Virus record (IMG/VR): IMGVR_UViG_3300025759_000236
Span: 1-38,938 of that record
Source of the DNA: a virus
DNA: 38,938 nucleotides
Strand: one strand, 5' to 3'
Part shown: in pieces, positions 6,679-32,560 of the stretch
How positions within the stretch are numbered: position 1 is the first letter of the stretch
Layout: each line of letters opens with the position of its first letter
Notes under the pieces: generated by a model
Told to the model about the DNA's origin: nothing
The model's input: the letters and a program-made list of their open reading frames with translations, nothing else
The model's database searches: none
Made by a program: the position numbers and the translations under genes

Positions 6679-6924
6679 ATGGCAGATAATGCCTATGTAC
6701 GGGTCCCTGCACCCGTTTCGCTCACTGATTGTTTCATTCAGTGCATGTCGGATGGGTCAGCGTACCTCGTTGACCGTGCATCTAACGAACGCATCTGTCG
6801 CGCCTACGGGTTCGACGAAGCGGGCGAAGGATGGCGAAGCCTTGTCACCTTCTGGACGAAGGATGGCGAGGAGGGCTTTTGGGCCACGTTTGACACCCGT
6901 ACGGTGACTCGGACGTTGGACTAA
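6679..6924 (+). CDS. Small early protein, copy A of a duplicated family (81 aa)
   Basis: 81 aa starting MADNAYVRVPAPVSLTDCFI. It is clearly paralogous to the gene at 8251-8493. Shared segments include SDGSAYL, ERICRAY / ERICKAY, EGWRS / ENWRS, FWTKDGEEGFW / FFAKTGEDGFW and a final VTRTLD / VTKTLD. The pattern of short beta-strands with Trp/Phe suggests a compact beta protein. The function is unknown; small duplicated genes early in a phage genome often encode host-takeover proteins. It is GC-rich (over 50% in places) compared with the rest of the phage. The stop is followed within 10 bases by a strong hairpin. Confidence 0.72.
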   Translation: MADNAYVRVPAPVSLTDCFIQCMSDGSAYLVDRASNERICRAYGFDEAGEGWRSLVTFWTKDGEEGFWATFDTRTVTRTLD

Positions 6925-8169: not shown

Positions 8170-8234
8170 GCAACAACGATGCAATGACTATTGCACTATC
8201 ATTGCCTTGCAATGACTGACTAAAAGTGAAAACA
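8170..8234 (+). promoter_or_regulatory. Upstream block with AAAAGTGAAAACA motif (copy 1)
   Basis: The block begins GCAACAACGA (8170-8179), contains repeats of GCAATGAC, and ends with AAAAGTGAAAACA (8222-8234), 16 bases before the ATG of the duplicated gene copy B. A related block is at 8601-8672. The motif recurs ahead of other plus-strand genes, so I read it as a phage promoter or activator site. Confidence 0.55.
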
Positions 8235-8250: not shown

Positions 8251-8493
8251 ATGAGTGAATCTATTTCCCCCATCCAGGCGCCAGTTGAGCTCAGCTCCTG
8301 CGTAATCGTCACCCTTAGCGATGGCTCTGCCTACCTCACAAAACGTGACGGTGGCGAGCGCATCTGCAAAGCGTACTCGTTCGAAGACGCAGACGAAAAC
8401 TGGCGATCCAAAACTACGTTCTTTGCCAAAACTGGCGAAGACGGGTTCTGGTGCGCTTACGATAGCCGAAAGGTTACGAAAACGCTTGACTAA
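8251..8493 (+). CDS. Small early protein, copy B of a duplicated family (80 aa)
   Basis: 80 aa, starting MSESISPIQAPVELSSCVIV. It is paralogous along its full length to the protein at 6679-6924, and both end in a VT-T/K-TLD tail. The two genes are 1.3 kb apart and separated by unrelated small genes, so the duplication is old or has been broken up by insertions. The ATG at 8251 follows the AAAAGTGAAAACA motif by 16 bases, giving a short leader. The stop is followed by the long hairpins at 8504-8590. The function is unknown. Confidence 0.72.
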   Translation: MSESISPIQAPVELSSCVIVTLSDGSAYLTKRDGGERICKAYSFEDADENWRSKTTFFAKTGEDGFWCAYDSRKVTKTLD

Positions 8494-8503
8494 AGCGTTA
8501 CTA

Positions 8504-8590
8504 CTACAGTTACTAGCTTGGCTTCGGCCTTGCTAGTGCTGTAGCAAAGTGTTGCAGTGCTTAAACGTAAGCATTGCAATACTTTTTTTT
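8504..8590 (+). terminator. Long TTCG hairpin followed by an intrinsic terminator
   Basis: The first hairpin spans 8504-8544: CTACAG/CTGTAG at its base, ACTAGC/GCTAGT in the middle and GGC-TTCG-GCC at its tip. The second pairs 8547-8562 with 8569-8584 over 16 positions including G-U pairs and runs straight into eight Ts (8583-8590), a textbook rho-independent terminator. Confidence 0.75.
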
Positions 8591-8600
8591 CACTATCACT

Positions 8601-8672
8601 GCAACAACGACGGTGTACACTGTCATCGCAACGCACAGTCCTTGCTGCAATAACGTACGATAAGTGAAAGCA
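8601..8672 (+). promoter_or_regulatory. Upstream block with ATAAGTGAAAGCA motif (copy 2)
   Basis: It starts with the same GCAACAACGA (8601-8610) as the block at 8170 and ends in ATAAGTGAAAGCA (8660-8672) followed by GCACAGAGAG, matching AGCCACGAGAAG of copy 1. It lies right after a strong terminator, as expected for a new promoter. The gene that follows begins about 108 bases downstream. Confidence 0.5.
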
Positions 8673-9337: not shown

Positions 9338-9422
9338 CATCCGGGGTGGATGTTAGGTCAGCTATGTGGGTACAGTATTATTCTGTACCTGCATAGTCTG
9401 TCCTTATCGAAAAGTGAAAACA
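9338..9422 (+). promoter_or_regulatory. Hairpins followed by AAAAGTGAAAACA motif
   Basis: Directly after the stop is CATCC-GGGGT-GGATG (9338-9352). Next is a long hairpin CTATG..GGTACAG-TATTATT-CTGTACC..CATAG (9362-9396), then CTGTCCTTATCG and AAAAGTGAAAACA (9410-9422). The order hairpin, TGTCYTTATC, motif is repeated before 12297 and in part before 13703. Confidence 0.55.
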
Positions 9423-11569: not shown

Positions 11570-11773
11570 ATGAGAAACAAATTAATTCTTACAGCACTGA
11601 CTGTGCTTTGTACCAGTTGTTACGGTCCTGCTCGAATGATAAATCACAGGTCACCTGACAATTGGCGTCGCGCACCAAAAGGATTTAAATGCGATGCTTA
11701 CTCTAATCTTAATCACAATGGCACAGACACCAACAGTAATGTACACCACATCACGTGGCACACAATCCATTGA
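11570..11773 (+). CDS. Small putative lipoprotein, 67 aa
   Basis: MRNKLILTALTVLCTSCYGP is a short signal peptide with a lipobox-like LCTSC, so Cys17 could be the lipidated residue. The mature part is polar (NHRSPDNWRRAPKGFKCDAY). Its last 18 codons overlap the next gene in another frame and are His/Thr-rich, so the true end may be constrained by that gene. Exported small lipoproteins of phages are often superinfection-exclusion or spanin-like factors; nothing here decides. Confidence 0.5.
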   Translation: MRNKLILTALTVLCTSCYGPARMINHRSPDNWRRAPKGFKCDAYSNLNHNGTDTNSNVHHITWHTIH

Positions 11774-12167
11774 TTCAATGGACATTGGCTACGTGTACAA
11801 TGCAAGCAAGTACATCGTTCGTCAACATGGCAAAAAAGACTTGCAAGATACAATACAAGCTGCAGAAGAAGGCACAGCAAGGCTGATCCTTAAGTGGCTT
11901 GTACTCTTACACAAAGAGGAGTACGAAAACTCTTATGAACATCGTTGTGCATTATGGAATTCCCTACCAGAGCAATTCCAATACGATGGTAATCATGCTC
12001 ATCCTGACGGTGACGATAGAGATGTTCTCTTCGACGACGACTATGTGTATGAAGTTAACGAAGACAGGGTAACTGTAGAAAAGTTATTGCAACAGTGCAG
12101 TGACTTTGTTCATTTATATCGTTACCCTGAGGTTCCTCTACGGCGGAAACGTTCGCACTTTATATGA
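11718..12167 (+). CDS. Hypothetical acidic protein, up to 149 aa
   Basis: From the ATG at 11718 it starts MAQTPTVMYTTSRGTQSIDS. A later ATG at 11778 (MDIGYVYNASKYIVRQHGKK) would remove the 56-base overlap with the lipoprotein gene and give 129 aa; I keep the longer form because the extra residues look like protein. The central part is helical (QDTIQAAEEGTARLILKWLV), followed by an acidic stretch (HPDGDDRDVLFDDDYVYEVN). No family is recognised. Its TGA lies inside the first stem of the structured element at 12164. Confidence 0.58.
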   Translation: MAQTPTVMYTTSRGTQSIDSMDIGYVYNASKYIVRQHGKKDLQDTIQAAEEGTARLILKWLVLLHKEEYENSYEHRCALWNSLPEQFQYDGNHAHPDGDDRDVLFDDDYVYEVNEDRVTVEKLLQQCSDFVHLYRYPEVPLRRKRSHFI

Positions 12168-12269
12168 AACATTGGCTGAAACGTCAGCATTAAGACGAAC
12201 AAAAACTAAACATGGTTAGATGTTTCATCATTAGGTTAAATTTGGTTTAGGCAGTTTTTTAGTTCTGCC
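12164..12269 (+). ncRNA. Structured intergenic element A with potential pseudoknot
   Basis: ATGAAACAT (12164-12172) pairs perfectly with ATGTTTCAT (12220-12228) and encloses GCTGA-AACG-TCAGC and CTAA/TTAG stems. Next is GGCAG-N10-CTGCC (12250-12269). The last seven loop bases, TTTAGTT (12258-12264), are complementary to AACTAAA (12204-12210), which overlaps the CTAA/TTAG stem. The element at 13598 has the same kind of loop pairing with different bases. Confidence 0.5.
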
Positions 12270-12280
12270 TGTCTTTATCT

Positions 12281-12293
12281 AAAAGTGAAAACA
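12281..12293 (+). promoter_or_regulatory. AAAAGTGAAAACA motif, copy 4
   Basis: Exact AAAAGTGAAAACA preceded by TGTCTTTATCT and the GGCAG/CTGCC hairpin. It ends only three bases before the ATG at 12297, so if it is a core promoter the message is almost leaderless; alternatively the motif also serves as an A-rich initiation signal. Confidence 0.55.
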
Positions 12294-12296
12294 ATA

Positions 12297-12767
12297 ATGA
12301 AAATTAGTAACACAATTATTAAATACATGTATACATATCAAGAATATCTAATACTAATGGGATCTATTGCAGGTTTAGCTATAGTTGCATTAGTTGTAAG
12401 AAATAGAAGCAAAAAAAAACAAGAAAAAACACAACAATGGAATGATTTAAATCAAATGTTTACAGATTTATATAATGCAAATGATTCTTTAAAACAAGAC
12501 TTGCATTATTCTGCTGCTAAAGTAAAAGTTATGTCTTCTATACAAGACACTTTAAAACTTAGTGCAGAAACTATGTACGAAGTAAATACTAATCTGATGG
12601 AAACATTAGAAAAAACAGTTCGTGCTTGTGATGCTTTACAGCAAGAAATACTTTACTTAAAAGGAGAGCTAAAGAATGTAGAGAAAAGCCCAGAAGATGA
12701 TTTAGATGATTGGTATCAGATACAAACTGCAGATCCTAATCAAATAAATCTTTTCGAAAATGAGTAA
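12297..12767 (+). CDS. Membrane-anchored coiled-coil protein, 156 aa
   Basis: Start set at the ATG at 12297 (MKISNTIIKYMYTYQEYLIL); the upstream GTG belongs to the promoter-like motif. One transmembrane helix (about residues 18-36, LILMGSIAGLAIVALVV) is followed by a basic stop (RNRSKKKQEK) and a long coiled coil (residues 45-130), ending acidic (SPEDDLDDWYQI). The topology resembles small anchored scaffold or Rz-like proteins, but the anchor-first layout with a cytosolic coil is also seen in membrane adaptors of phage infection. Its stop overlaps the next start by eight bases. Confidence 0.68.
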   Translation: MKISNTIIKYMYTYQEYLILMGSIAGLAIVALVVRNRSKKKQEKTQQWNDLNQMFTDLYNANDSLKQDLHYSAAKVKVMSSIQDTLKLSAETMYEVNTNLMETLEKTVRACDALQQEILYLKGELKNVEKSPEDDLDDWYQIQTADPNQINLFENE

Positions 12768-13053
12768 AAAAGTTACATATACTCCTGCTAGTTCAATTGA
12801 CCCAGATGAACTAGCAATGATGTGGGTAAATTATTTGTTGCAAGAATTGCGTTTAGCATTTCTTACAAATAAATATGAAATAGAATTAAAACAACCGTTC
12901 AATGTTAAGTATCTAAAATACAAGTGGGTTGATGCACTAGCACAAGCCAACCGTATTTGTGAACGAGAAGAACAATATGAACATTGTGCTGAGATTCTTC
13001 AAATGCAATCAAAACTAAGTACAAATAATAAAATTAACCTAAGTAAAGGGTGA
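12760..13053 (+). CDS. Hypothetical protein, 97 aa, helical
   Basis: MSKKVTYTPASSIDPDELAM begins a mostly helical protein (MWVNYLLQELRLAFLTNKYE; ANRICEREEQYEHCAEILQM). No family is recognised. It overlaps the preceding membrane-anchored coiled-coil gene by eight bases, so the two products may work together. A 54-base gap follows with an A-rich leader for the next gene. Confidence 0.62.
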   Translation: MSKKVTYTPASSIDPDELAMMWVNYLLQELRLAFLTNKYEIELKQPFNVKYLKYKWVDALAQANRICEREEQYEHCAEILQMQSKLSTNNKINLSKG

Positions 13054-13107
13054 TGAGGCTGTCTGCCTATAATAGACAAAATAGAAACAATTAAATTTTT
13101 AGAAACA

Positions 13108-13590
13108 ATGTCAAGTAACAAAGAATACTTTTGTCAGATTACCGAGCGTAGCGATAACAAAACGGATCGCAGCGGTAATACGTACGCAACAATTAGAATC
13201 CAAGCTGTTCCTGCAGTAACTCGCTTCAACCCTCTTACAAGTAAAGACGAGGTGTGTGCTGGCGCTGCTCGTACCTTTACTGTTAATTCATGGTTAAGCG
13301 GTGTGGACAGTCCTTGGAATCACATTTTTCATAGCGCTGTTGGTTCCGCTGTTATCGGTACTCCTGTGAAGATTGACGTAGAACCCTACGAAATCGATGA
13401 CATGGAGTACACCACTGCTACTGTGTTTGTTCCCGACACAGAAGATTCTGTTACGTGGAATCGTAGCTTTGATAACATTTTGCGGTGGGACAACTTTACC
13501 TTGGCTGGTTCTATGATTCTGCCCATTGACGTGGTAGAAGAGACTGCCGAGCCTATCACCGACAAGTCGAAAACAAAGCTCGACGTTTAA
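13108..13590 (+). CDS. Beta-rich hypothetical protein, 160 aa
   Basis: MSSNKEYFCQITERSDNKTD starts a protein with many short strands (YATIRIQAVPAV, RTFTVNSWLSGVD, TPVKIDVEPYEID, EYTTATVFVPDTED), suggesting a beta-barrel or OB-like fold. It has a GC content somewhat above its neighbours and a polar C-terminal tail (EPITDKSKTKLDV). A role in nucleic-acid binding is possible from the fold guess only. The structured element at 13598 begins just after its stop. Confidence 0.62.
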   Translation: MSSNKEYFCQITERSDNKTDRSGNTYATIRIQAVPAVTRFNPLTSKDEVCAGAARTFTVNSWLSGVDSPWNHIFHSAVGSAVIGTPVKIDVEPYEIDDMEYTTATVFVPDTEDSVTWNRSFDNILRWDNFTLAGSMILPIDVVEETAEPITDKSKTKLDV

Positions 13591-13597
13591 TAACGTA

Positions 13598-13688
13598 AGA
13601 TAAGGTCATTAAAAAATCTACGAATAGTTAATCCTTTATAACTATCTCCCTTTACTTCGGCAGTTTGTAGATTCTGCCGACCTTATCT
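13598..13688 (+). ncRNA. Structured intergenic element B with pseudoknot/switch potential
   Basis: P1 is a 10-bp stem, AGATAAGGTC (13598-13607) with GACCTTATCT (13679-13688). P2 pairs AATCTAC (13615-13621) with GTAGATT (13667-13673). P3 pairs ATAGTTA (13624-13630) with TAACTAT (13639-13645). CGGCAG-N10-CTGCCG (13658-13679) has the P2 3' strand as the end of its loop, so P2 and this hairpin form either a pseudoknot or a switch. TTATCTAAA follows, as in the promoter-like sites. Confidence 0.55.
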
Positions 13689-13702
13689 AAATTCATTTAG
13701 CT

Positions 13703-14380
13703 ATGCCTAATCACACTGAAACAAAAGTGCGTATACAAGGCGCACCCCATGTTATCGATGCAATGTATGGCAAGCTCAAATCTCTTGTAGGAGACAATGG
13801 GCTAAACAACAACATCGGTTTCCTTGAACAATTTATTGGCGACCCTTCTCGTAATTTAGGTGAAACTGAAAGAAACCTAAAAAGTGAAGATGGTATGCCT
13901 AATTGGTATGCACAGCGATTAAACCATTGGGGTACTAAGTGGGATGTATACCATGTACAAGATGTACAAGTAGATTTTCTGCCCCAGCATGCAGGCTTTG
14001 AAGAGTCACGTGTGCTTACTTGCTTATGGGATACTGCTTGGTCACCGTGTATACCTGCAATGAAAACGCTTAGTCGTAAATTCAATGTAGATGTTACACT
14101 TGACTACATTGATGAAGGTTTATTCTTTGTTGGTCGTACCATCATTATTAATGGTGAGATTAATCTAGAACAAGATTATGACGGCAAAGATGTATACCGT
14201 GGTATGTATGAACTGTTTGGTCGCGAACACTACCTCGATTGGCTCGAAGGAATTAAAGAGTTTGTTGACGACGATTTCAAAGATGAGATACATGGTGATG
14301 CTAAAAACTATGTATCTAAAGAAGACTTCAAGAAAGTAACACACATACTTGGTATGGATAAAGTTACTGAAGAAGGTTAA
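13703..14380 (+). CDS. Api92-like / DUF1281-type protein, 225 aa
   Basis: The protein begins MPNHTETKVRIQGAPHVIDA and contains NWYAQRLNHWGTKWDVY (about residues 66-82) and CLWDTAWSPCIPAMKTLSRK (about 107-126), then VDVTLDYIDEGLFFVGR. This N-H-x-x-N/K-V-R-I start, WGTKW block and TAWSPP-like block are the signature of the ferredoxin-like Api92/DUF1281 family, common on plasmids and phages and without a known activity. The C-terminal 60 residues are acidic and helical. The gene is set off by the structured element upstream and a hairpin downstream, so it may be a separate transcript. Confidence 0.78.
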   Translation: MPNHTETKVRIQGAPHVIDAMYGKLKSLVGDNGLNNNIGFLEQFIGDPSRNLGETERNLKSEDGMPNWYAQRLNHWGTKWDVYHVQDVQVDFLPQHAGFEESRVLTCLWDTAWSPCIPAMKTLSRKFNVDVTLDYIDEGLFFVGRTIIINGEINLEQDYDGKDVYRGMYELFGREHYLDWLEGIKEFVDDDFKDEIHGDAKNYVSKEDFKKVTHILGMDKVTEEG

Positions 14381-14412
14381 TAAAAATATATCTCATGGCA
14401 GAGACCAGAACG

Positions 14413-14442
14413 GGGGGAGGGTAGGACAAGATGCTCTCCCCC
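14413..14442 (+). terminator. GGGGGAG/CTCCCCC hairpin
   Basis: A 7-bp GC-only stem with a 16-base loop, 32 bases after the stop of the Api92-like gene and 29 bases before the next ATG. A short A-rich leader follows rather than a T-run. It is a likely terminator or processing hairpin. Confidence 0.5.
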
Positions 14443-14471
14443 TTAGTATGGAACACTAAAAAAAAATTAAT

Positions 14472-18320: not shown

Positions 18321-18360
18321 TAGGGTGGTATGCATTACATTAATGGTGCATACTACCCTA
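18321..18360 (+). terminator. 14-bp stem hairpin between replication genes and giant-protein operon
   Basis: TAGGGTGGTATGCA (18321-18334) pairs with TGCATACTACCCTA (18347-18360) over all 14 positions with one G-U, around a 12-base loop. It ends 11 bases before the ATG of the first giant gene, so it forms its 5' leader and may both end the replication transcript and control translation of the giant gene. Confidence 0.6.
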
Positions 18361-18371
18361 TATCTATAATA

Positions 18372-21300
18372 ATGAAGTATATATCTTTATTGTGTGTTGC
18401 ACTTTTAATTAGTGCTTCTAGTAACCCAATCTCCGCACAAATACAACCTACTGGTTGTCCTACATATTCTTATTGGAATGGACAACCTGTAAATGATGGT
18501 TCTCAAATAACAGCAGTAACAGGAGTTGGACCTTATTCTTGTTGTACTGCATACGCACCGGAAGGCACTTATTTATATTTTGATGGATCAGAATATATAA
18601 ATAATGAATTGCCAGATGACCCTAACTGTTTGTTGGGAACAGCTGCAGGTCAAGATTCTTCTTGGAATGATTCTTATGGTCTAAAAGGTAGAGGTACTAT
18701 TGTAAATCCAACAAATATATTTTTAGATATGAAAGTCTTTGAAACAAGATTTTCAACTACACTAGGATTTTTACAAGATTTTGAAGAACCTGAATTTGTA
18801 TTTGGTGGTGGTAAATTTAGGTTTCATAGTTTTTACATAGATAATGGAACAACTGTTAGGGTCACTAACAATACTCAGATTGAAATAAAAGGACAACTTA
18901 AAATAAATTCAGGTCAGCTTATTATTGAACCTGGTAGTAGTGTAAAACTATTAGCTAATTCTAATGAAACAGCTGCAACACATTTATACAATGGAGGCTC
19001 GATAGAAGGAGAAATAACAAAACAAATATTTTACAAGAGAAAGTCTACTACAGATGTAAATACAACAACAGGCGAGGAGATTTATTCAAGATTTAATTTT
19101 AATCCAGGCTTGTATAATGTAGATATGGACCAAGTAGCTCGGTCTTTTCAAAATGCTTTAGATATTGAGTATGTAGACGGATCTACTGATAAGCCTACTG
19201 TACAAATAGGAGCCTGGGTTAACGACACTATATATGAAGATTATTCATTCTTTGCAGACCAAAAATATTTAAGTCCTTCAAGTTCTTTAGAACTACCTGA
19301 TTTTGAATATCCTGTATCGTTAGGATCTAATACTTACAATACGTTTGAAGACACTGCATACAACAATTCAGGTATAAATTGGTACAGATTTACTCCAAAT
19401 GAGGGAGCAGCTGTATTACCGTTGTACACTAATACGGATAATACTCAAGATGACTTTTTCAATGATCCTCAATTTTTAGGATACAGCAGCAGTGGGTTAG
19501 TATCTGATTTTTCAAATATATCAAAAACAAATCCAAGCTTTATGGGGCCATGGATTGTGTCTGTATACAATGCAAATCCAAATATTACTGAGTTTGTAAT
19601 AGAAGTAGTTGGTAATCAAGTTACCTCTGCACAAAGCGTTTTTAATATAAAGAATATCGCTAGTAGCACTATACCTACAACTTTAAGTGTATCTGATGCT
19701 CCTTTAACTTTTACATATCAAGTATCTACTGGAGAATATCCTCCTTTTTTACCACTGGCACCTCTAGACTACACTTTACTAGTTACACCAGCAGATACAT
19801 CAGATCAAGGAGTTATTACACCTGCAGATACTATACCATTTGGAGGTCTCTATACTCAAGATTACGGTGTAAAAAATTATTCAGCTGGTTGGTATAGATA
19901 TGTACCAATGACGGGTTTAAATTTTTACCCAAACACTACAGGTAATTATATGTTAACTGAAAGGTTGGGATTAGCATATCATTATGCTGCTCCCTACTCA
20001 GAGCATGCTTTTTACGATACTAGGTTGTTGGTACCCGAAATGAAAGAAAGAGAATATAGCTTTCACACCTTCTCTTCAAATGGATCAACAATCAATGCAA
20101 CAATTGCAGATCATTCTTCATCTGCAAGACTTCCAATAATTGCTAATTTTTTAGCAATTGAAGATCCAGTTACAGATGTAGCTCCAGCTACAGATGTACT
20201 TGTAGATATATATAACATTCCAGATATACCAGTATATACCGGTATAGGTGATACAATACATCCATATGATTCATGGGCTTTAAATCTTAACAACCCTATG
20301 AATTATTTTCAGTATTTAGGACAAGACATTTTTATGTCGACTGGATTTACTCAAGTAGATAAAACATGGTTAGATGGAGGACCTGCTAGTAATCAATGGA
20401 CAGCTCCAATAGTAAATGATTATGCAGGAAGCAATCCTATTAACACTTACGATTTAAGTGAAGTACAAAAAATAGACGATAAAATAAGTCAATTGTCTTT
20501 TAAAAATGGACGAGAGCCTAATTACGATATAGAATACAACGTGATTAAAGATGCTGCGTATTGGGAAGAACAAAACAAATTCTCGTTGCTAACGTTACAC
20601 GGAGTAACATCTGCAAATGATACTATAAGACTTAGTGCAATTCCTGTAGCATGGGGCGAACAGTATGGAATGAATTATTATGTAGGAGATAGCGCAAATA
20701 TAAATAGTGACTTGTTTTTATACGGTGTTGATAGATTTGAAACAAGTATAGGTGTTGATCCAGGATTTCACTTTATAAATAAAAGTCCTAAAGCTGTAAA
20801 TAGAATGGCAGGTGCTCATTCTAGAGATTATGCTATAGCTCTTGACACTTTATATTTAATCTTCAACAGTGAAATGTATGAAGCACCAGTTGGCGAGGAA
20901 TTTGTTTCTTTTTATATAGACAATCCAATAACGCAAGATCCATTTTTTGATGGACAATTTGCTTGGCACTATACTTTTCAAAATCCCGCATGGCCTAATT
21001 TTGTTTTAAATAATAGCGTACAAACATTAAATACTATAAACTATACAGAAGCTGTACCTACTTCTGGAAATCCAGAACAATTTAAAGGAGATATAGTCAC
21101 ATTTACTAGTAATCCTATAGCTGGAGATTTTAACGGAGATGGTCAAGTTACTACAAGTGATTTATTAGTTTTATTAGGCTATTTTGGTGGCGAGGATCAA
21201 GGTAATTTAGGAATTTTTGGCGGAGATTTTAATGGAGATGGCTCAATAACTACTTCTGACTTACTTTCATTTTTAAGCTTTTTTGGACAAACACTAGAAG

Positions 21301-21755
21301 ATTGGGTAGGATTAAGTGGAGAATCTCCTGTATCTATTAACGAAAGAAGAATTAAACATCTTTTAGCAGATAGAAACAATGACCATTATCCTTACGATGT
21401 TTCGTTATATCCAGGTTGGGATTCTCAGCAATTAGCTTGGTATTCCGGCTTAAATAAAGCCAACGTTACTGTGTTCGTAACAGACAACTATGGTTGGGTT
21501 GTATATAAAAATAATTTAGGTGAAATACCTACAGGAATTAGGTTGCAAAATAAATTTCCAAGCACACAAGAAATTTTAGACAGTGGAATTGGAACAGGAC
21601 TTACTGCATATCCAGAAGGATATAACATAAGATTGTTATTCCCTCGACAAACTGTACCTGGATTTACTGATCCTATTGATGTAATTTGTTTAGGATGCAA
21701 AGATCCTGATACTCCTATAAACCTTCAAGTAAATCCAGTATTTACTGTTAATTGA
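18372..21755 (+). CDS. Giant secreted dockerin-domain protein 1 (1127 aa)
   Basis: Start at the ATG at 18372, giving a classic signal peptide MKYISLLCVALLISASSNPI with predicted cleavage after SA before Gln23; upstream codons lie in a hairpin. Residues about 130-210 are beta-helix-like (FRFHSFYIDNGTTVRVTNNT, then LKINSGQLIIEPGSSVKLLA). A YNVDMDQVARSFQNALDIEY segment matches one in the two following proteins. Two dockerin-type EF-hands lie at about 919-935 (DFNGDGQVTTSDLL) and 952-968 (DFNGDGSITTSDLL), each followed by an L-x-x-FG helix. About 150 further residues end DTPINLQVNPVFTVN. It is exported by Sec; the function is unknown. Host secreted proteins of Flavobacteria use similar modules, so capture from a host is likely. 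Confidence 0.88.
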   Translation: MKYISLLCVALLISASSNPISAQIQPTGCPTYSYWNGQPVNDGSQITAVTGVGPYSCCTAYAPEGTYLYFDGSEYINNELPDDPNCLLGTAAGQDSSWNDSYGLKGRGTIVNPTNIFLDMKVFETRFSTTLGFLQDFEEPEFVFGGGKFRFHSFYIDNGTTVRVTNNTQIEIKGQLKINSGQLIIEPGSSVKLLANSNETAATHLYNGGSIEGEITKQIFYKRKSTTDVNTTTGEEIYSRFNFNPGLYNVDMDQVARSFQNALDIEYVDGSTDKPTVQIGAWVNDTIYEDYSFFADQKYLSPSSSLELPDFEYPVSLGSNTYNTFEDTAYNNSGINWYRFTPNEGAAVLPLYTNTDNTQDDFFNDPQFLGYSSSGLVSDFSNISKTNPSFMGPWIVSVYNANPNITEFVIEVVGNQVTSAQSVFNIKNIASSTIPTTLSVSDAPLTFTYQVSTGEYPPFLPLAPLDYTLLVTPADTSDQGVITPADTIPFGGLYTQDYGVKNYSAGWYRYVPMTGLNFYPNTTGNYMLTERLGLAYHYAAPYSEHAFYDTRLLVPEMKEREYSFHTFSSNGSTINATIADHSSSARLPIIANFLAIEDPVTDVAPATDVLVDIYNIPDIPVYTGIGDTIHPYDSWALNLNNPMNYFQYLGQDIFMSTGFTQVDKTWLDGGPASNQWTAPIVNDYAGSNPINTYDLSEVQKIDDKISQLSFKNGREPNYDIEYNVIKDAAYWEEQNKFSLLTLHGVTSANDTIRLSAIPVAWGEQYGMNYYVGDSANINSDLFLYGVDRFETSIGVDPGFHFINKSPKAVNRMAGAHSRDYAIALDTLYLIFNSEMYEAPVGEEFVSFYIDNPITQDPFFDGQFAWHYTFQNPAWPNFVLNNSVQTLNTINYTEAVPTSGNPEQFKGDIVTFTSNPIAGDFNGDGQVTTSDLLVLLGYFGGEDQGNLGIFGGDFNGDGSITTSDLLSFLSFFGQTLEDWVGLSGESPVSINERRIKHLLADRNNDHYPYDVSLYPGWDSQQLAWYSGLNKANVTVFVTDNYGWVVYKNNLGEIPTGIRLQNKFPSTQEILDSGIGTGLTAYPEGYNIRLLFPRQTVPGFTDPIDVICLGCKDPDTPINLQVNPVFTVN

Positions 21756-21756
21756 T

Positions 21757-24700
21757 ATGAAGTATTTATTATTTATACTAGGAATAATAATTCCTGCTGT
21801 TAGTTTTTCTCAATATCCATTTGATGTTTACCTAAGTAGTGTTCAATCAAATTATACAAGTGTACTTAATTTAAATACTATTCAAGACCAAATATATGTC
21901 AGTGGTAACAATGGATTATTAAATTTAACAGGAGAAGATGAAGTAGACTATTACCCGCATTATACTAGTGAAATAGCGCCATATATAAATAATTGGACAT
22001 CGTTTTCAGATGCTCCTTACGCTTGGTATGCTAATACAGTTCAGCAACCTAATCTATATTTAGCATTAGGAGGAGCTGAAGCAGGATCTTCTTTAATTGA
22101 TATACAAGCTATTAACGGGTCAAATCAACTTGGAGGATTATATTGTGGCCTAGTACAAAGCAATGGTCTTAAACGCCGCTATGTAGATATTTACAATGAA
22201 GACACTCTATTTATAAAAAATCTTTTAGTTCCAAAAGAAGGAATTCTAAGACATCACGGTCCTGCACCCGTAGTTATTACAGAACAATTTATAAATTACG
22301 GAACAGTTTATTCTGACGCAGATAACATTTTATGTCAAGCTAATAAAGAAGAAGCAAAAATATCTACATTCGACAACCGAGGAACGTTTATAGGAAGAAT
22401 GAAATATGAAACGCTTGTAAATTATAGGCGTGAACAAATTGGCATAGTTGATTTATTTGATTGGTACCAACCTCTTAATCTACAAGACAGTGTTCAAATA
22501 GCTATACCTTATTTGAATACAGAAAGTGCAGACTATTTACAAAACTTAATGGACAATAATCAATTGTCTGAAATAGCACAGTTTATAGATTCTTTGTATC
22601 AAATTAATTACACATATCCTTGGAACTACTACATTGGACAAAGCTATACTGGATTTCCTTTAAAAGGAACTAGATTCTCAAGAGAAGCAGGTGACTTTAG
22701 AGTAAAACATATGTGGAAAGATTGGAGAGAAATAAAAAAACCATTTATTTTTACCGAAGATACTTATGAAGGTCTTACAATCGATGAAGTAGTAGGCAAT
22801 GGTGAGTTAGCTGTTTGGATAACTGCTACTGGTTATAGTAATACTAACCAACAAGATACTTTAATATATATTGGAGATGAGTTAACAGCTATTTTTGAAA
22901 CTTATGAATGGGTAGATGACTCATTAACATTCATTAATGATACAGTACCTGTTACTGATTTAGAATTTCTTATTAATATCACTGCTTACGAAAATCCTGT
23001 ATTAGAAGGGCTCAACTATTCTTGGATAACTTTTGATGAAGATGAGTTGTCTGTAAGCTATGGTGATAAAGGGACGGCTTCTAGTTTAGTTTGGTCAGAC
23101 TGGAGAGTAGAAACTCCTACTAAAAACAGATTGTACGAAAAAGAAGGCCACTATTTTCTTGCAGATAGTGGATACGGGAGTACTGAAATTTTTGAAAATT
23201 TTGGAGTATCTGGAATACCTATTGTACCTACAGTAGGAGAAGATCCAAACTCACTTTATTTATTACAGGCAGGTTTTCCTGAAAGTTATCCTTACCATGG
23301 TTATGATGCACCATATCTGTCATCGTTTAGTGATGACGACTACCCATATTATAATGGGACATTTGTTCCAGGTTGGGACGCTAGTACTCCAGTTCCTTTT
23401 CCTTTAGGTGTTTTTATGACTCTTTTAGGAAGCCAAAATACTGAAACAGTACTTCAATACAGGGGAACACCTTGGATGAATTCAGATGAAGCGTATATAG
23501 AATACCCTTATCATCCTTCATTACCTGGTCAAAATGATTTAATACCAAATTTAAAACCACCTAGCTGGCTTGGACAAGACAATAATTTTGAAGCTAAAAT
23601 ACATTTGCCTCCAAAAACAAACGTACAGTATGTTTATTCTCCTAGCGGAAGTCTTTTTGAATCTAGTAGTTGGGCTAATTGTTACGACGCTAGTGCAGAT
23701 AATTTTAACTACGATAGTTTACAGATTATAGCATTTTGTGAAACAGAGTTATCAGCATATAGCACTCTTAGTCCTGATAATTTTTATATAAACGCTGAGA
23801 ATAACACCGTTATTGATGAAGAGTATTTAGATTTTTTATTAGCAAATACTGCAGTGGCTGCACTTAGGGAAAATAATTTTTACCATGTAAGTTCACCTGT
23901 ATTAGGATATTTAGATTTAGATCGAGTTGCAGAAAGATTTTTTGAAGAAAATGAAGATGCTCAATATCTAGACTTTCACTGGTATAATAGTCAAGGATTT
24001 CCTGTAGCAGATCCTTCTCAATATTTATTAGCAATAGATCCATTTATAGGATCAAAGAAGTTTTTTAGAAAAAAGTATTACAAGCTTGGAGATGAAGTTA
24101 TGACAAGCGAGCTTGATTTTTGGCTTAGTCTTTTATACTTAGAATTTCAAGCTAGTAACGGTGCAGGATTTAGTGACTTAGCTTTAAATATTGTTAGTTC
24201 TTTAGAAGACGGGGAAGTAACATTTGCAGATGGTCCAATTATAAATTGGTTATACAATGGACAATTTAACCCAGCACAATATGTTGAGTTAAGTCAGTAT
24301 GTTCCGCCTGGAGTAGGATTTTGGATAGGCAATAATATAGGACAAGAAACTACAATTAGTATAAGACCAGAGGATGGTATTTATGATTACAATTGGAGTG
24401 ACTCAACTAATCAAATATTTGCAGGAACTGTAGGACCTGTAGAAACATTAGGTAGACAAGGTGCAAGCAATCTTCCTGAATTTCCTAATTCCAATATACT
24501 TGAGAATCACAATGTGATTTTAGCTTATGCCTGGCAGAATGATTCTACTTACTTTCCATTTCCTGCAATAATGCACCAGTTTGCTGATAATGCAAAAATT
24601 GGAACACACAACCCAGAAGATCAAGGCGTACAATTTCCAATAGTACCCTACGCATATACAGACTCTAGTAACTTTGTTGCTTCTAGATATTTTAAAGAAG

Positions 24701-27024
24701 ACGTTCCACATAACTCTTCTCCTACACATATGCACATTGTAGCTCCTCCTATTAATGGAGCTTGGGTATTTTCTCCTATAAGCTTTCAAAGTCCTGATAA
24801 TATTGTTTCCAATAGTCAAGCAATCTCTAATTTGAGCAAGCCTTTAAGATTAGGAATACAACTTTATGATGAAACTGGAGAATATAATATTCAATATTTA
24901 GACTACATGGACACTATGTATGTCAGATTTGAAGATTATAATTTTCCTATTGAAGCAAAAACATATTGGACAACTTTACAATGCGATTTTAATGGAGATG
25001 GGCTAGTTAGTATTAATGATTTAACAGATGTTTTAGGAGCTTTTGGTGTATGCGAACCTGCTACAAACTTCAATGCTACGTTTGATGCAAATGAAGACGG
25101 GTGCGTTGGTGTTGCAGATTTAATACTAGCAATGACAGAGCTAGGACATAATATAGGCGTAGAAGTAGGAGAGTTTGAAGGTATATCAGGTTTAGTTTCT
25201 GTAGGTGGCAGATTAACTGGAACTTTACGTACAGAGTTTGAATCATTTATTGAAAATGAATTACCTTCTTATTTGGATGCTGGATTTAAATACGATCCAG
25301 CTACTTTGACTCTTAAGTATTTTGGAGAAGAAATTATAGTATATGACTCTGAGTTAAAAGTAATTGCTTCAGGATATAACCAAGTACAACTTCCTAATGT
25401 AGATGAATTTTATCTTGTTGCTGCAGAGTCTGCAGTATGTAAGATAAACACTAATGCAACTTTAGTAGTACCTGCTTCTGATCCTGGAAACTATACTTAC
25501 AATGCAGTTGTATATACTCCTGAAGAAGGTTCAAGCATTGTTAACTTTTGGGACAATTCTTTAAAACTTGCAAGTGTTGCAGAATGGACAGAACTATACA
25601 CTGATTTTGACCAGTATAGCGGGAACTTAAATCCACTACCTAATATCAGTCCATATATAAACCAGCTTTATTACGGTTGGAACTCCAATAAACAAACAGG
25701 AGACTTGTACTCTCCAAGCAATGCTATTACTGCTGGATTAGTTGATGTATTTAGTGCAGGACAACCTGAAAGCGATATATTCAATTTTAATAAAGGAGTA
25801 TACGCAGACCCTAAGTGGAAATCAGCAAGTGAAGGCTATGAAGATGAAATAGGTATTGGATCTACCAACATATTTACTCCTAAAAATATTTTATTTGGAT
25901 TTGCATCTAAAAGAAATAAAGAGAATTTACACTCTGATCAGATACACAACTCTTCAGAAACTTTAAAAATATCTAACATAAACGGGGCATCTACAGCATT
26001 TGGCCCCTATTCTGTAGTAACAACAGAGTTAGACCCATCTGCGTCTGTCTGGGGATCCGAAGACATTAAAGAATACTATGACGCTCCATTTGAAAATGCA
26101 GTGCTCTCAATGGTAGATATGATGACCTTGAGAGATTATTTCAGATTTAAATTAAAAGGAAACTCACCCAAGTTTGGTGCAAAGAATCCAAGAGATACTG
26201 GAAATTGGCCAGCACAAAGTTTTGGAAATCCTTATAACATCAATACTGTAATTGGAGAGCAGCAGCAAATACCAGAAAAACAGTGGGCACCCAATACATG
26301 CAACACATATCAAGATTGGACTGACAACATTGTTACTCCTTTCTTTGCAGCTTTTATGGGTCAACCTGTTTCAATTACTATTGAAGGGGCTCCTCCCATA
26401 TTTACAGGAGAAGAATTAAATAATGATGCTAACCATTATCAATGGTTTCAAAACTCTACTTTGTTTGAAGCGCTTGGAACATACGGACCTCTTGTCTATG
26501 ACTTTGATTGGAATGGAGTATGGGAACAAAAAGATTTAGATATCTGGAATTCTATTACAAGCGTATGGAGTCAATTAGGTGACGATGCAGGAAGAAGTTA
26601 CTACGCCCCTGCAAACTACTATAGAGCAGGTACTGACGCGCTTAACACTATTGTTAATGTTTTACCTGAATACTCAAACAAAAAAGACTCTTACATTCCA
26701 GCAAAAAACTTTACTCAATATTTTAATATTAGCAATGGAGAAGCTACTATTGATACAAGAATTGCTAACTGGGCTAACTGCCTAAACGGTAATGAATATA
26801 TAGAAGGAAATCAAAGTGTAGGACCAGAAGTTCAAGCAAGTCAATTCACATATACAACCGACTTGCCGTTATTAGAACCGGCTACACTATCATTAGCCAT
26901 GAGTTCCTCAGCTCCTAGAAATACAGCAAACGCTATTGAAATAACTGATTACCATAGCATACCTGGAGGATATCTAGTAGTTCCTTCCAGTACTTTCTTT
27001 CCTGTTTCTCTTATTAGAAATTAA
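21757..27024 (+). CDS. Giant secreted dockerin-domain protein 2 (1755 aa)
   Basis: It begins one base after the previous stop. The signal peptide MKYLLFILGIIIPAVSFSQY is cut probably before Gln19. An N-terminal beta-helix-like region (DTLFIKNLLVPKEGIL, PAPVVITEQFINYGTV, about 145-220) matches the third protein. Later come LGYLDLDRVAERFFEENEDA (about 715) and VPPGVGFWIG (about 850). Dockerin EF-hands start at about 1077 (DFNGDGLVSINDL) and 1110 (DANEDGCVGVADL). A third EF-hand-like loop, DFDWNGVWEQKDLDIW, starts at 1582. The C-terminal 500 residues (INQLYYGWNS, MVDMMTLRDYFRFKLKG, QWAPNTC) are closely shared with protein 3. Low-GC, host-like composition. Probably surface-attached or released; function unknown. 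Confidence 0.9.
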   Translation: MKYLLFILGIIIPAVSFSQYPFDVYLSSVQSNYTSVLNLNTIQDQIYVSGNNGLLNLTGEDEVDYYPHYTSEIAPYINNWTSFSDAPYAWYANTVQQPNLYLALGGAEAGSSLIDIQAINGSNQLGGLYCGLVQSNGLKRRYVDIYNEDTLFIKNLLVPKEGILRHHGPAPVVITEQFINYGTVYSDADNILCQANKEEAKISTFDNRGTFIGRMKYETLVNYRREQIGIVDLFDWYQPLNLQDSVQIAIPYLNTESADYLQNLMDNNQLSEIAQFIDSLYQINYTYPWNYYIGQSYTGFPLKGTRFSREAGDFRVKHMWKDWREIKKPFIFTEDTYEGLTIDEVVGNGELAVWITATGYSNTNQQDTLIYIGDELTAIFETYEWVDDSLTFINDTVPVTDLEFLINITAYENPVLEGLNYSWITFDEDELSVSYGDKGTASSLVWSDWRVETPTKNRLYEKEGHYFLADSGYGSTEIFENFGVSGIPIVPTVGEDPNSLYLLQAGFPESYPYHGYDAPYLSSFSDDDYPYYNGTFVPGWDASTPVPFPLGVFMTLLGSQNTETVLQYRGTPWMNSDEAYIEYPYHPSLPGQNDLIPNLKPPSWLGQDNNFEAKIHLPPKTNVQYVYSPSGSLFESSSWANCYDASADNFNYDSLQIIAFCETELSAYSTLSPDNFYINAENNTVIDEEYLDFLLANTAVAALRENNFYHVSSPVLGYLDLDRVAERFFEENEDAQYLDFHWYNSQGFPVADPSQYLLAIDPFIGSKKFFRKKYYKLGDEVMTSELDFWLSLLYLEFQASNGAGFSDLALNIVSSLEDGEVTFADGPIINWLYNGQFNPAQYVELSQYVPPGVGFWIGNNIGQETTISIRPEDGIYDYNWSDSTNQIFAGTVGPVETLGRQGASNLPEFPNSNILENHNVILAYAWQNDSTYFPFPAIMHQFADNAKIGTHNPEDQGVQFPIVPYAYTDSSNFVASRYFKEDVPHNSSPTHMHIVAPPINGAWVFSPISFQSPDNIVSNSQAISNLSKPLRLGIQLYDETGEYNIQYLDYMDTMYVRFEDYNFPIEAKTYWTTLQCDFNGDGLVSINDLTDVLGAFGVCEPATNFNATFDANEDGCVGVADLILAMTELGHNIGVEVGEFEGISGLVSVGGRLTGTLRTEFESFIENELPSYLDAGFKYDPATLTLKYFGEEIIVYDSELKVIASGYNQVQLPNVDEFYLVAAESAVCKINTNATLVVPASDPGNYTYNAVVYTPEEGSSIVNFWDNSLKLASVAEWTELYTDFDQYSGNLNPLPNISPYINQLYYGWNSNKQTGDLYSPSNAITAGLVDVFSAGQPESDIFNFNKGVYADPKWKSASEGYEDEIGIGSTNIFTPKNILFGFASKRNKENLHSDQIHNSSETLKISNINGASTAFGPYSVVTTELDPSASVWGSEDIKEYYDAPFENAVLSMVDMMTLRDYFRFKLKGNSPKFGAKNPRDTGNWPAQSFGNPYNINTVIGEQQQIPEKQWAPNTCNTYQDWTDNIVTPFFAAFMGQPVSITIEGAPPIFTGEELNNDANHYQWFQNSTLFEALGTYGPLVYDFDWNGVWEQKDLDIWNSITSVWSQLGDDAGRSYYAPANYYRAGTDALNTIVNVLPEYSNKKDSYIPAKNFTQYFNISNGEATIDTRIANWANCLNGNEYIEGNQSVGPEVQASQFTYTTDLPLLEPATLSLAMSSSAPRNTANAIEITDYHSIPGGYLVVPSSTFFPVSLIRN

Positions 27025-27029
27025 TACCT

Positions 27030-30000
27030 ATGGTTAAAAAAATATTACTCTTTTTAGTTTCGTGGTTATCATATATAACAATATACGGTCAGAGTCCTGT
27101 TGCGTGTTTTGATGAAGATGACAACTTACAAAGAGAACCTAGTCTTTGTCTTTTAGTTTCAGGTTCTCAAATTGATCTTTTTATTAATAATAATTTTTCT
27201 GTACATACTCCTGATGCTTTAATTCAAAACTCTCCTATAGCAGATTTAGAAACTGGAGAAAAGATTTATACCAATGAATATAATTATGATGGAACTGCAG
27301 CTCCTATAAATTTTTATCCAAACCAAAGAGCTTTAAAACTAGCTGCAGGCGGGTTAAATCCAGGAGACGTTGTTATGACAACTTCTTTAGGATCTGCTCC
27401 TCTAGGAGAACCTTTTTATTTAAAAGAGTTAAGAGTTGGTGTTTACAGAAATGATTTTTACCATCGTCATTTAGAGTTAAACAACTACGATACAGTTTAT
27501 ATAGAAAAGCTTACTATACCTTTTAATGCAGAATTCGTTCACAATGGACCAGCTCCTTTAATAATAACTAAGGAATTACACAACTATGGAAAGTTTACTA
27601 CGGTAAATGATAACTTAGTTATGGAATTTAATATAAACGAAGGAAAAAGAAGCGTTTTAGAGAACAAAGGAACTTTTGTAGGCAGATTAGAATATGAAAA
27701 TGTTAGAGGCGCCGCTTACGTTCCTGTTGTTTACGGAGCATTATTTAATACCGCAACTGCTCCTACATTAAATGATTCCATTGCTATATTTTTAGAATGG
27801 GCACCTCCTGAGTATATTGATGCATATGAAGAATTTCAACAAAGTGGCTTATACGACAGCATACCTGATTTAATAGCTAACTTTACTAATGAAGTATATA
27901 CTCTTAATTTTAATAACGGTTTTGCAAAAAAAGGAGTACCGTTAAAAGGAGTTAGACTTGGTCCTTTCGAAGGAGATTACTCAGTAAAAAAATTGAGAAG
28001 GCTTCCAGGCAACGACAATGCATGGGGTAAAGAATACTTTGCAACAGGAGAAGATGTTAATATTTTATTTTCAGCAATTGAAAATGGTGATGCAGCTATA
28101 GTTTTAACTTCTAATAATATAGACGCTCCAACAGGAGATGACACTTTAGTTGTTACATCTGACGGTCTTATCGCTAATGTAACTGAGTATCTATTAGTAA
28201 TAGATGGTAATACTGTAGTATTCTATGACTCTGTTTTTTATGATAACGCATCATTAATAGTAAACTGGAATTATTATTACTCGGATTTCCCGTCAGTAGA
28301 TGAATACGCAAACAATAATAATATTGCTGTAGGAGATTGGGTAAACACATTAGACTTGTTTCCTAATACATATGGAAGGCAAGTATTAGGTCAGTATTTT
28401 GGCTCTTTTAAACAAAATGTAGTTTTATTCGATTTAAAAAGTAGTTTAGATGAAGGAAGAAAAGGTTGGGAACATCCTGATCACTTTATTTATGCAGACA
28501 CTTCTGGTATAGAATCTTTTTTTGAAAATATTTATAATGTTAGTTTAGATTCATTAGACTATGATCGGTCAGTAACAGAAGAAGATTTAATACTTTATGA
28601 AAATGAATTAAACGCAGGTTTAATTGAAAATAACATATTTTACGATGCGTTATTAGAATCTAATACAATATTACCCTATCCAGATATTAGCAAGTATAAT
28701 GGAAGTTATAATTATTTAAACGCATGGGGATATAAATGGCCTGATGTAGATTATGATACTCCATTTCCATATCCTGGAAGCTACTGGACTAATGCTATGT
28801 GGTATGACTATAAAAGCCCTAAAATAGAATCATATAAAGGATTTTTATGGAATAATTCTGACGAGTCTTATCAAGAAAATCTTTACCACCCTCCTAATTT
28901 ATTAAATAGTCAGCCATTAATACCTAATATACAACCTGATGAATATTGGGATAATGCTTATCATTTTCCTTTGTCCATTGGGGAATCCAGCACTTACGTG
29001 TATGATTTAGATGGAAATCTATTTACAGAAGATTCTTATACTAATTGTATTAACATAAATGAAGATTTAAGTTACGGAGATGACGAAGTTTTTGCATGTT
29101 TAAACGATCCAAGCACCAATTCTAATGGCTCCGTTGCAACTCCTGTTATTTTTGATTATAATGTAGGAATAGAAAGTCTAGACTTTTCATCTGAATACAT
29201 TGATTCTGTATATGCAGACGTTGTTTTTAATCTTTTTATTAAAGATCAACAATTCAATAAAGTAAGTGATGTTTTAAACACAACTTTAGGTTATTTAGAT
29301 TTAAATGAAGTAGCTTTTAAATTTTTTGAAGAAAATCCAAACACTTCATTTTTTCAAGTTTCAACTTGGTCTGCAGCTTGGCGGGGAAGATCTGTTTTAG
29401 ATCCAAACATTGTTAATCCTTATGCTGGTAAGAACGACAATCCTCATATAATAAGAAAATATTACAATTGGAATTATGGTTCAAATTCAACTAATAATTC
29501 GTCTTATGTAATAACTGAAGAACAAACTTATTGGCTTACTATATTATATACTATATATACAGCAACTAATGGCGCTGGAATGAGTGACCAAGCTATTGAA
29601 CTAGCAGTAGCATTTCAAGACGGAATTATCGCTCCTAGCGACGGAGCACCTTTTTGGTATATGGTAACAGGAGACTTTGGATGGAATACACGAATGTCAC
29701 TAGGAAGATATGTTCCTCCAGGAGAATCTTTTTATGTATATACAGATAAATCTAATACTGGATACGTTACGATTGATAGCGATATGTCTAGTTACACCTA
29801 TGATTTAAGTGAATTAGATTCAAACGAGATTTTTTCAAATGAAGTAGGACCTTGGGAGTACACTACATATGGATATGACTATCAAGGATCTCCTCAAAGA
29901 ACATCTGAAGAATTAACAGATGAGTTAGAAACTAATAATACATCTGATTTTAGTTTGTTGTTAGATGTAGCAAGTAACTTAATTTCATGGGCTTATAAAA

Positions 30001-32547: not shown

Positions 32548-32560
32548 GAAAGTAAAAACA
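32548..32560 (+). promoter_or_regulatory. GAAAGTAAAAACA motif, copy 5
   Basis: A variant of AAAAGTGAAAACA preceded by CTGTCTTGGTCT, the same upstream half as in the copies at 9410 and 12281. It lies 24 bases before the helicase ATG and just after the giant operon, where a new promoter for the replication genes is needed. Confidence 0.5.

Follow-up and report, generated by a model that had tools for sequence, protein, structure and literature searches.

A pseudoknotted RNA element repeated at two gene borders of a distant crAss-like phage relative

Introduction

The crAss-like phages are among the most abundant viral groups of the gut and, to our knowledge, few small structured RNAs have been described from them. 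We analyzed a 38.9-kb viral fragment (IMG/VR record IMGVR_UViG_3300025759_000236, hereafter the window) in which two intergenic gaps, each holding a hairpin whose loop can pair with a strand upstream, raised the question of whether they encode one structured RNA, and what such an RNA might do between genes. The element is short, covaries strongly, has two copies per genome, each at a fixed gene border, and is easily tested; a literature search for such an element retrieved nothing.

Genomic context and relatives

The family A DNA polymerase encoded in the window shares about 28% identity with its counterpart in gut crAss-like phages, and we therefore regard the phage as a distant crAss-like relative. 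Element A lies between ORF 11694-12167 and ORF 12297-12767 and element B fills the gap between ORF 13108-13590 and ORF 13703-14380, with all genes on the + strand. The product of the gene downstream of A combines a TM segment with a coiled coil, and its homologue in contig L004 weakly resembles Rz-like spanins; the gene downstream of B has a DUF1281_C match and is DUF1281-like. For the gene before B, a family search gave no match and the structure model (pLDDT 42) was too poor for naming the product.

We located the homologous gaps in three contigs with the same gene order, L003, L004 and L005, whose polymerases are 76, 71 and 68% identical to that of the window. Element A was present in L003 and L004, and element B in all three, for a total of seven syntenic elements from four contigs (A and B in three phages, B alone in L005, where an A-type element was sought and not found). 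Two more distant contigs, L007 and L016 (polymerase 57-59%), were without the element. L016 carries a 13-bp terminator-like hairpin (1598-1628) downstream of its homologue of ORF 13108-13590, close to the position of B in the window clade, and inspection by eye of L007 showed a long G+C-rich hairpin followed by T7 downstream of the same gene, which the terminator scan did not report.

Other features of the window were recorded in passing. Another conserved structure (CATGGCAGAGAC..GAACGGGGGGAG-loop-CTCCCCCTTAGTA) lies at 14393-14450, in the gap between ORF 13703-14380 and ORF 14472; L003 has it at the equivalent site, L005 has a more diverged version there, and the gap is absent in L004. Small ORFs at 6679-6924 and 8251-8493 resemble paralogues (..YLVDRASNERICRAYGF.. 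and ..YLTKRDGGERICKAYSF..), which suggests a local duplication. Three giant ORFs (1141, 1755 and 1834 aa) span 18330-32534; the first has a dockerin type I match, and none of the three has a PHROG match.

A shared fold for A and B

Elements A and B are two copies of a single structured RNA element with one fold (Table 1), an assignment of which we are nearly certain from structure and conservation. The initial annotation had described two RNAs of matching geometry, which was correct and understated the case, as they form one family: it had missed the outer helix P1 in A and the A-rich strand that both share. Since A also has P1, both follow one strand order, P1 - A-rich linker - PK strand - variable loop - S2 - UUU - PK' - S2' - P1', in which P1 encloses the A-rich strand (ACAAA), the 5' strand of PK (the pseudoknot helix), a loop that varies from 10 to 43 nt, and S2, a hairpin of 5 bp. 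PK forms between its 5' strand and the last bases of the S2 loop, with no gap to the S2 stem; the PK strands are 47 nt apart in A and 45 nt apart in B, and the S2 stem strands are 12250-12254/12265-12269 and 13659-13663/13674-13678, respectively. The two GGCAG-N10-CTGCC hairpins originally noticed are the sole exact matches to this pattern in the window, and the seven-base pairings proposed with them are both present.

Table 1. Positions of the elements and of the adjacent repeated motif in the window
Element	Feature	Sequence	Positions	Strand	Remarks
A	P0 hairpin	GCTGA-AACG-TCAGC	12173-12186 (approximate)	+	directly upstream of P1
A	P1 5' strand	AAGAC	12192-12196	+	pairs with 12271-12275
A	A-rich linker, P1 to PK	GAACAAA	12197-12203	+	6-9 nt and A-rich in 7/7 elements
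A	PK 5' strand	AACTAAA	12204-12210	+	pairs with 12258-12264 (TTTAGTT); covariation
A	S2 hairpin	GGCAG-TTT-TTTAGTT-CTGCC	12250-12269	+	final 7 bases of the loop form the PK 3' strand; covariation
A	P1 3' strand	GTCTT	12271-12275	+	pairs with AAGAC
	Promoter-like motif	AAAGTGAAAACA	12282-12293	+	directly after A, before the downstream gene
B	P1 5' strand	AGATAAGGTC	13598-13607	+	pairs with 13679-13688
B	A-rich linker	ATTAAAA	13608-13614	+	
B	PK 5' strand	AATCTAC	13615-13621	+	pairs with 13667-13673 (GTAGATT); covariation
B	S2 hairpin	GGCAG-TTT-GTAGATT-CTGCC	13659-13678	+	covariation
B	P1 3' strand	GACCTTATCT	13679-13688	+	flush with S2

Across the seven elements, PK has 5-7 bp and S2 always 5 bp, the loop between S2 and PK is 3-7 nt long and always begins with UU, the PK'-S2' gap is 0 nt and the S2'-P1' gap 0-3 nt. 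A-type elements carry in addition the hairpin P0, whose AACG loop is invariant while its stem covaries (GGCTAA-AACG-TTAGCC in L003 and AAGGTTGA-AACG-TCAATCTT in L004). The TTATCTAAA tail reported as common to both elements does occur at 12275-12283 and 13683-13691; in B it is mostly the 3' strand of P1, and it is not kept in the relatives.

As the fold had originally been left as either a pseudoknot or a two-state switch, we also considered whether the PK 5' strand alternates between the S2 loop and another partner. In the minimum free energy fold of A in the window, AAACUAAA pairs with UUUGGUUU just upstream of S2, which excludes PK, and a potential competing strand, UUUGGUU, is conserved in all three A elements. 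This strand does not covary, however, the alternative in L003-A has 5 pairs and is not the minimum free energy fold, and the four B elements are without an equivalent. The CTAA/TTAG stem once proposed to compete in A is likewise not conserved in the relatives. The pseudoknot is conserved by its pairing, a switch is unnecessary for B, and we consider a switch improbable overall.

Statistical support for the fold

To quantify pairing, we aligned a gapless core of 38 columns, cut by hand around the structure, from the seven elements. The 15 pairs in the three helices were paired in all 105 cells (105/105), always as Watson-Crick pairs. Each of the helices P1, PK and S2 covaries, P1 at every one of its 5 aligned pairs; two-sided changes were present at 11 of the 15 pairs, and the covariation score was 0.84, compared with 0.24 in shuffles. 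None of 500 shuffles attained the observed value for pairing, for two-sided changes or for covariation, and pairing fell to 32-48% when the partner strand was slid. The proposal that pairing is kept while the bases differ, made from A and B, is thereby borne out across seven elements, and the pairings are retained in the relatives.

Because the cut of the alignment was guided by the structure, we ran two independent controls. First, the seven whole gaps were shuffled with dinucleotide composition preserved, and the observed score was reached in 1, 0, 2, 0, 1, 6 and 0 of 3000 shuffles each (1/3000 for A and 0/3000 for B in the window gaps). Second, we scanned the window, the three relatives and the more distant contigs (about 380 kb; 763,046 bases on both strands) with a dedicated structure scanner, used in place of a covariance model because such models cannot hold pseudoknots. 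With filters set after the first elements had been seen, the scan returned 7 matches, exactly the seven syntenic elements, against a mean of 0.15 in twenty shuffled sets. Looser filters yielded 60-odd matches, compared with about 51 in shuffles, which makes the A-rich and UU features important for specificity. Nested folding-energy z-scores were strong for B of the window and of L005 and average for several other elements, a weak form of support; average values are expected, as the folding program cannot form the knot.

The core covariation, the whole-gap shuffles and the structure scan rule out chance. As all core pairs are Watson-Crick, the complementary strand can pair too, which would also suit a feature of the DNA itself without any RNA. 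On the reverse complement, a linker of 3 nt would have to span the wide shallow groove, and A-form geometry therefore argues for an RNA of the coding strand, the only one it appears to fit. We give hardly any credence to chance or a DNA-level feature.

Distribution beyond the close relatives

We compared the DNA of the region with 50,697 phage records, without a match; a protein search with the gene before B matched only three IMG/VR contigs and nothing in the phage collection. In sequence-pattern searches of viral contigs and genome contigs, those matches beyond L003 and L004 that we examined were due to chance and did not have the structure, and alignment of the polymerase to genome contigs found nothing. 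The structure scan of other viral loci (about 3.5 Mb, both strands counted) returned 3 matches, the same number as in shuffled sequence.

No Rfam family matched the elements, either at the gathering threshold or with E-values up to 5, and this includes every family of self-cleaving RNA. HDV-like theta ribozymes are found among phage pseudoknots next to tRNAs (PMC10879173), and element A of L004 follows a tRNA-Met. The strand order here is nonetheless unlike that of HDV-like ribozymes, and there is hardly any invariant unpaired sequence that could make an active site. A self-cleaving ribozyme or a trans-acting small RNA is thus a very improbable identity for the element.

Placement at gene borders and possible roles

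We then compared the position of the elements with respect to the neighboring genes. Taking the window, L003, L004 and L005 in that order, element B begins 7, 7, 6 and 8 nt past the upstream stop codon, and the next start codon lies 14, 24, 12 and 10 nt beyond its end. Element A ends 21-64 nt before the next start codon; its distance to the upstream gene varies, and different genes precede it. In the window, A is followed by the motif AAAGTGAAAACA, which we call promoter-like as a repeated sequence only. Its exact copies are at 8223, 9411 and 12282, and the motif also follows A of L003. In the window, the repeat around AAAGTGAAAACA was observed at 8223, 8661, 9411 and 12282 and also at 32549 and 35555, often continued by CGAGAAATAG, and it occurs twice in L003. 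The copy at 8661 is preceded by a terminator-like hairpin (8546-8585), and the one at 9411 by a strong hairpin (9366-9396).

As B lies 6-8 nt past the upstream stop codon in four phages and A just before a promoter-like motif, we tentatively favor a role as a border between cistrons, acting on the 3' end of the upstream mRNA. The element would be transcribed with the + strand genes, and the knot would form just outside the ribosome terminating on the upstream gene, a position that would keep it folded; there it would protect or define the 3' end of the upstream mRNA, replacing a hairpin or a terminator. We counted in support of this role the near-constant distance of B to the stop codon, set against its more variable distance to the next start, the hairpins downstream of the same gene in L016 and L007, and the other motif copies located behind hairpins. 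Against it, we counted the inconstant spacing of A to the upstream gene and the proximity of B to the next start, which fits a leader equally.

In that alternative, the knot belongs to the 5' UTR of the downstream gene, and a protein or small ligand that stabilizes it alters translation. The distances to the next start, the permuted H-type geometry with an ACAAA strand, which recalls compact riboswitches such as preQ1-I, and the possible competing partner UUUGGUU of the A-type PK strand would all suit a leader, and we regard this account as nearly as good as the 3'-end role, if somewhat doubtful. It is the spacing to the stop that is fixed in B, however, and not the spacing to the start; the two downstream genes are unrelated; the promoter-like motif separates A from its gene in the window and in L003; and the few invariant unpaired bases beyond the A-rich strand and UU are meagre for a ligand pocket.

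A signal for pausing or termination by the phage or host RNA polymerase would also suit the location at gene borders ahead of promoter-like motifs, and the L016 hairpin sits at the same place. Intrinsic terminators and 3' stabilizing hairpins resemble the elements in location, behind a stop codon or ahead of the following promoter-like motif. Here, though, a knot takes the place of the hairpin, and no T run follows S2 or P1 in six of the seven elements; the exception is L004-B (GGGGG-loop-CCCCCTTTT), which alone has CCCCCTTTT. A terminator scan of the window reported neither A nor B, and intrinsic termination seems too simple a task for conserving a pseudoknot. We consider such a signal unlikely.

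Readthrough of the upstream stop codon stimulated by B was considered as well, being suggested by the spacing of 6-8 nt as in murine leukaemia virus, and was rejected because a second in-frame stop occurs within 6 codons in all four phages.

Returning to the cistron border, it is possible, and we put this forward with more reserve than the 3'-end role, that the elements define a new family of cis-acting RNAs in crAss-like phages. Its members would be H-type pseudoknots, circularly permuted and closed by P1, that lie at a fixed distance past a stop codon and, in place of a terminator, uncouple the fates of neighboring cistrons (by protection or processing of the 3' end, or by gating the next gene). 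If 3'-end protection or definition is the true role, the element would show how such phages partition expression without ordinary terminators.

Comparison with known RNAs

We compared the element with the pseudoknots that it most resembles. The T4 gene 32 mRNA pseudoknot is also a phage mRNA knot at a gene border. It lies in the 5' leader of the gene for a ssDNA-binding protein and is bound by that protein; here, we identified no ssDNA-binding protein, and the genes that follow A and B are a membrane/coiled-coil gene and a DUF1281-like gene, respectively. The HDV-like theta ribozymes of gut phages are likewise pseudoknotted phage RNAs, sometimes beside a tRNA, but they form a nested double pseudoknot (P1-P2-P3-P1'-P4-P2'), unlike the order P1-PK-S2-PK'-S2'-P1' found here, and no HDV-like or theta ribozyme family of Rfam matched the elements.

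The closest likeness is to H-type knots with an A-rich loop 3, such as the luteovirus frameshift signals and the preQ1-I riboswitch, which also have a 5-bp stem, a knot helix of 5-7 bp made from the hairpin loop, a short loop across the deep groove and an A-rich strand of 6-9 nt beside the hairpin stem. In A-form RNA, a few nucleotides are enough to bridge a deep groove 5-7 bp long, and a strand of 6-9 nt can follow the shallow groove of a 5-bp stem. P1, S2 and PK would form one linear stack, in which UU(U/A) would bridge the deep groove of PK and the shallow groove of S2 would accommodate the A-rich linker. The elements differ from these knots in that the A-rich and knot strands are 5' of the hairpin with the variable loop between, in the extra closing helix P1, and in lacking both a frameshift context and a free loop base to which preQ1 could bind. 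In preQ1-I, the A-rich tail is 3' of the hairpin and the ligand loop cytosine lies between the knot strand and the 3' strand of the hairpin; here the A-rich strand is 5' of the hairpin, with 0 nt between the knot strand and the S2 3' strand in 7/7 elements, and neither preQ1-I (RF00522) nor the other preQ1 families matched in Rfam (gathering threshold or E up to 5).

Judged from its base pairing, the element has the proportions of a compact H-type pseudoknot that is circularly permuted, with its termini in P1. The hairpin loop pairs with an outside strand in seven covarying elements, and the loop lengths are compatible with the stacking proposed above. The ordinary H-type connection from the hairpin to the A-rich strand would here run through P1, whose strands would form the 5' and 3' ends of the element, with the variable loop joining the usual termini. 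A permuted knot closed by an outer helix would extend a classic RNA fold by a naturally occurring, circularly permuted form, and we place the elements as a new family within a known kind, that of small structured phage RNAs with an H-type knot, here in permuted chain order.
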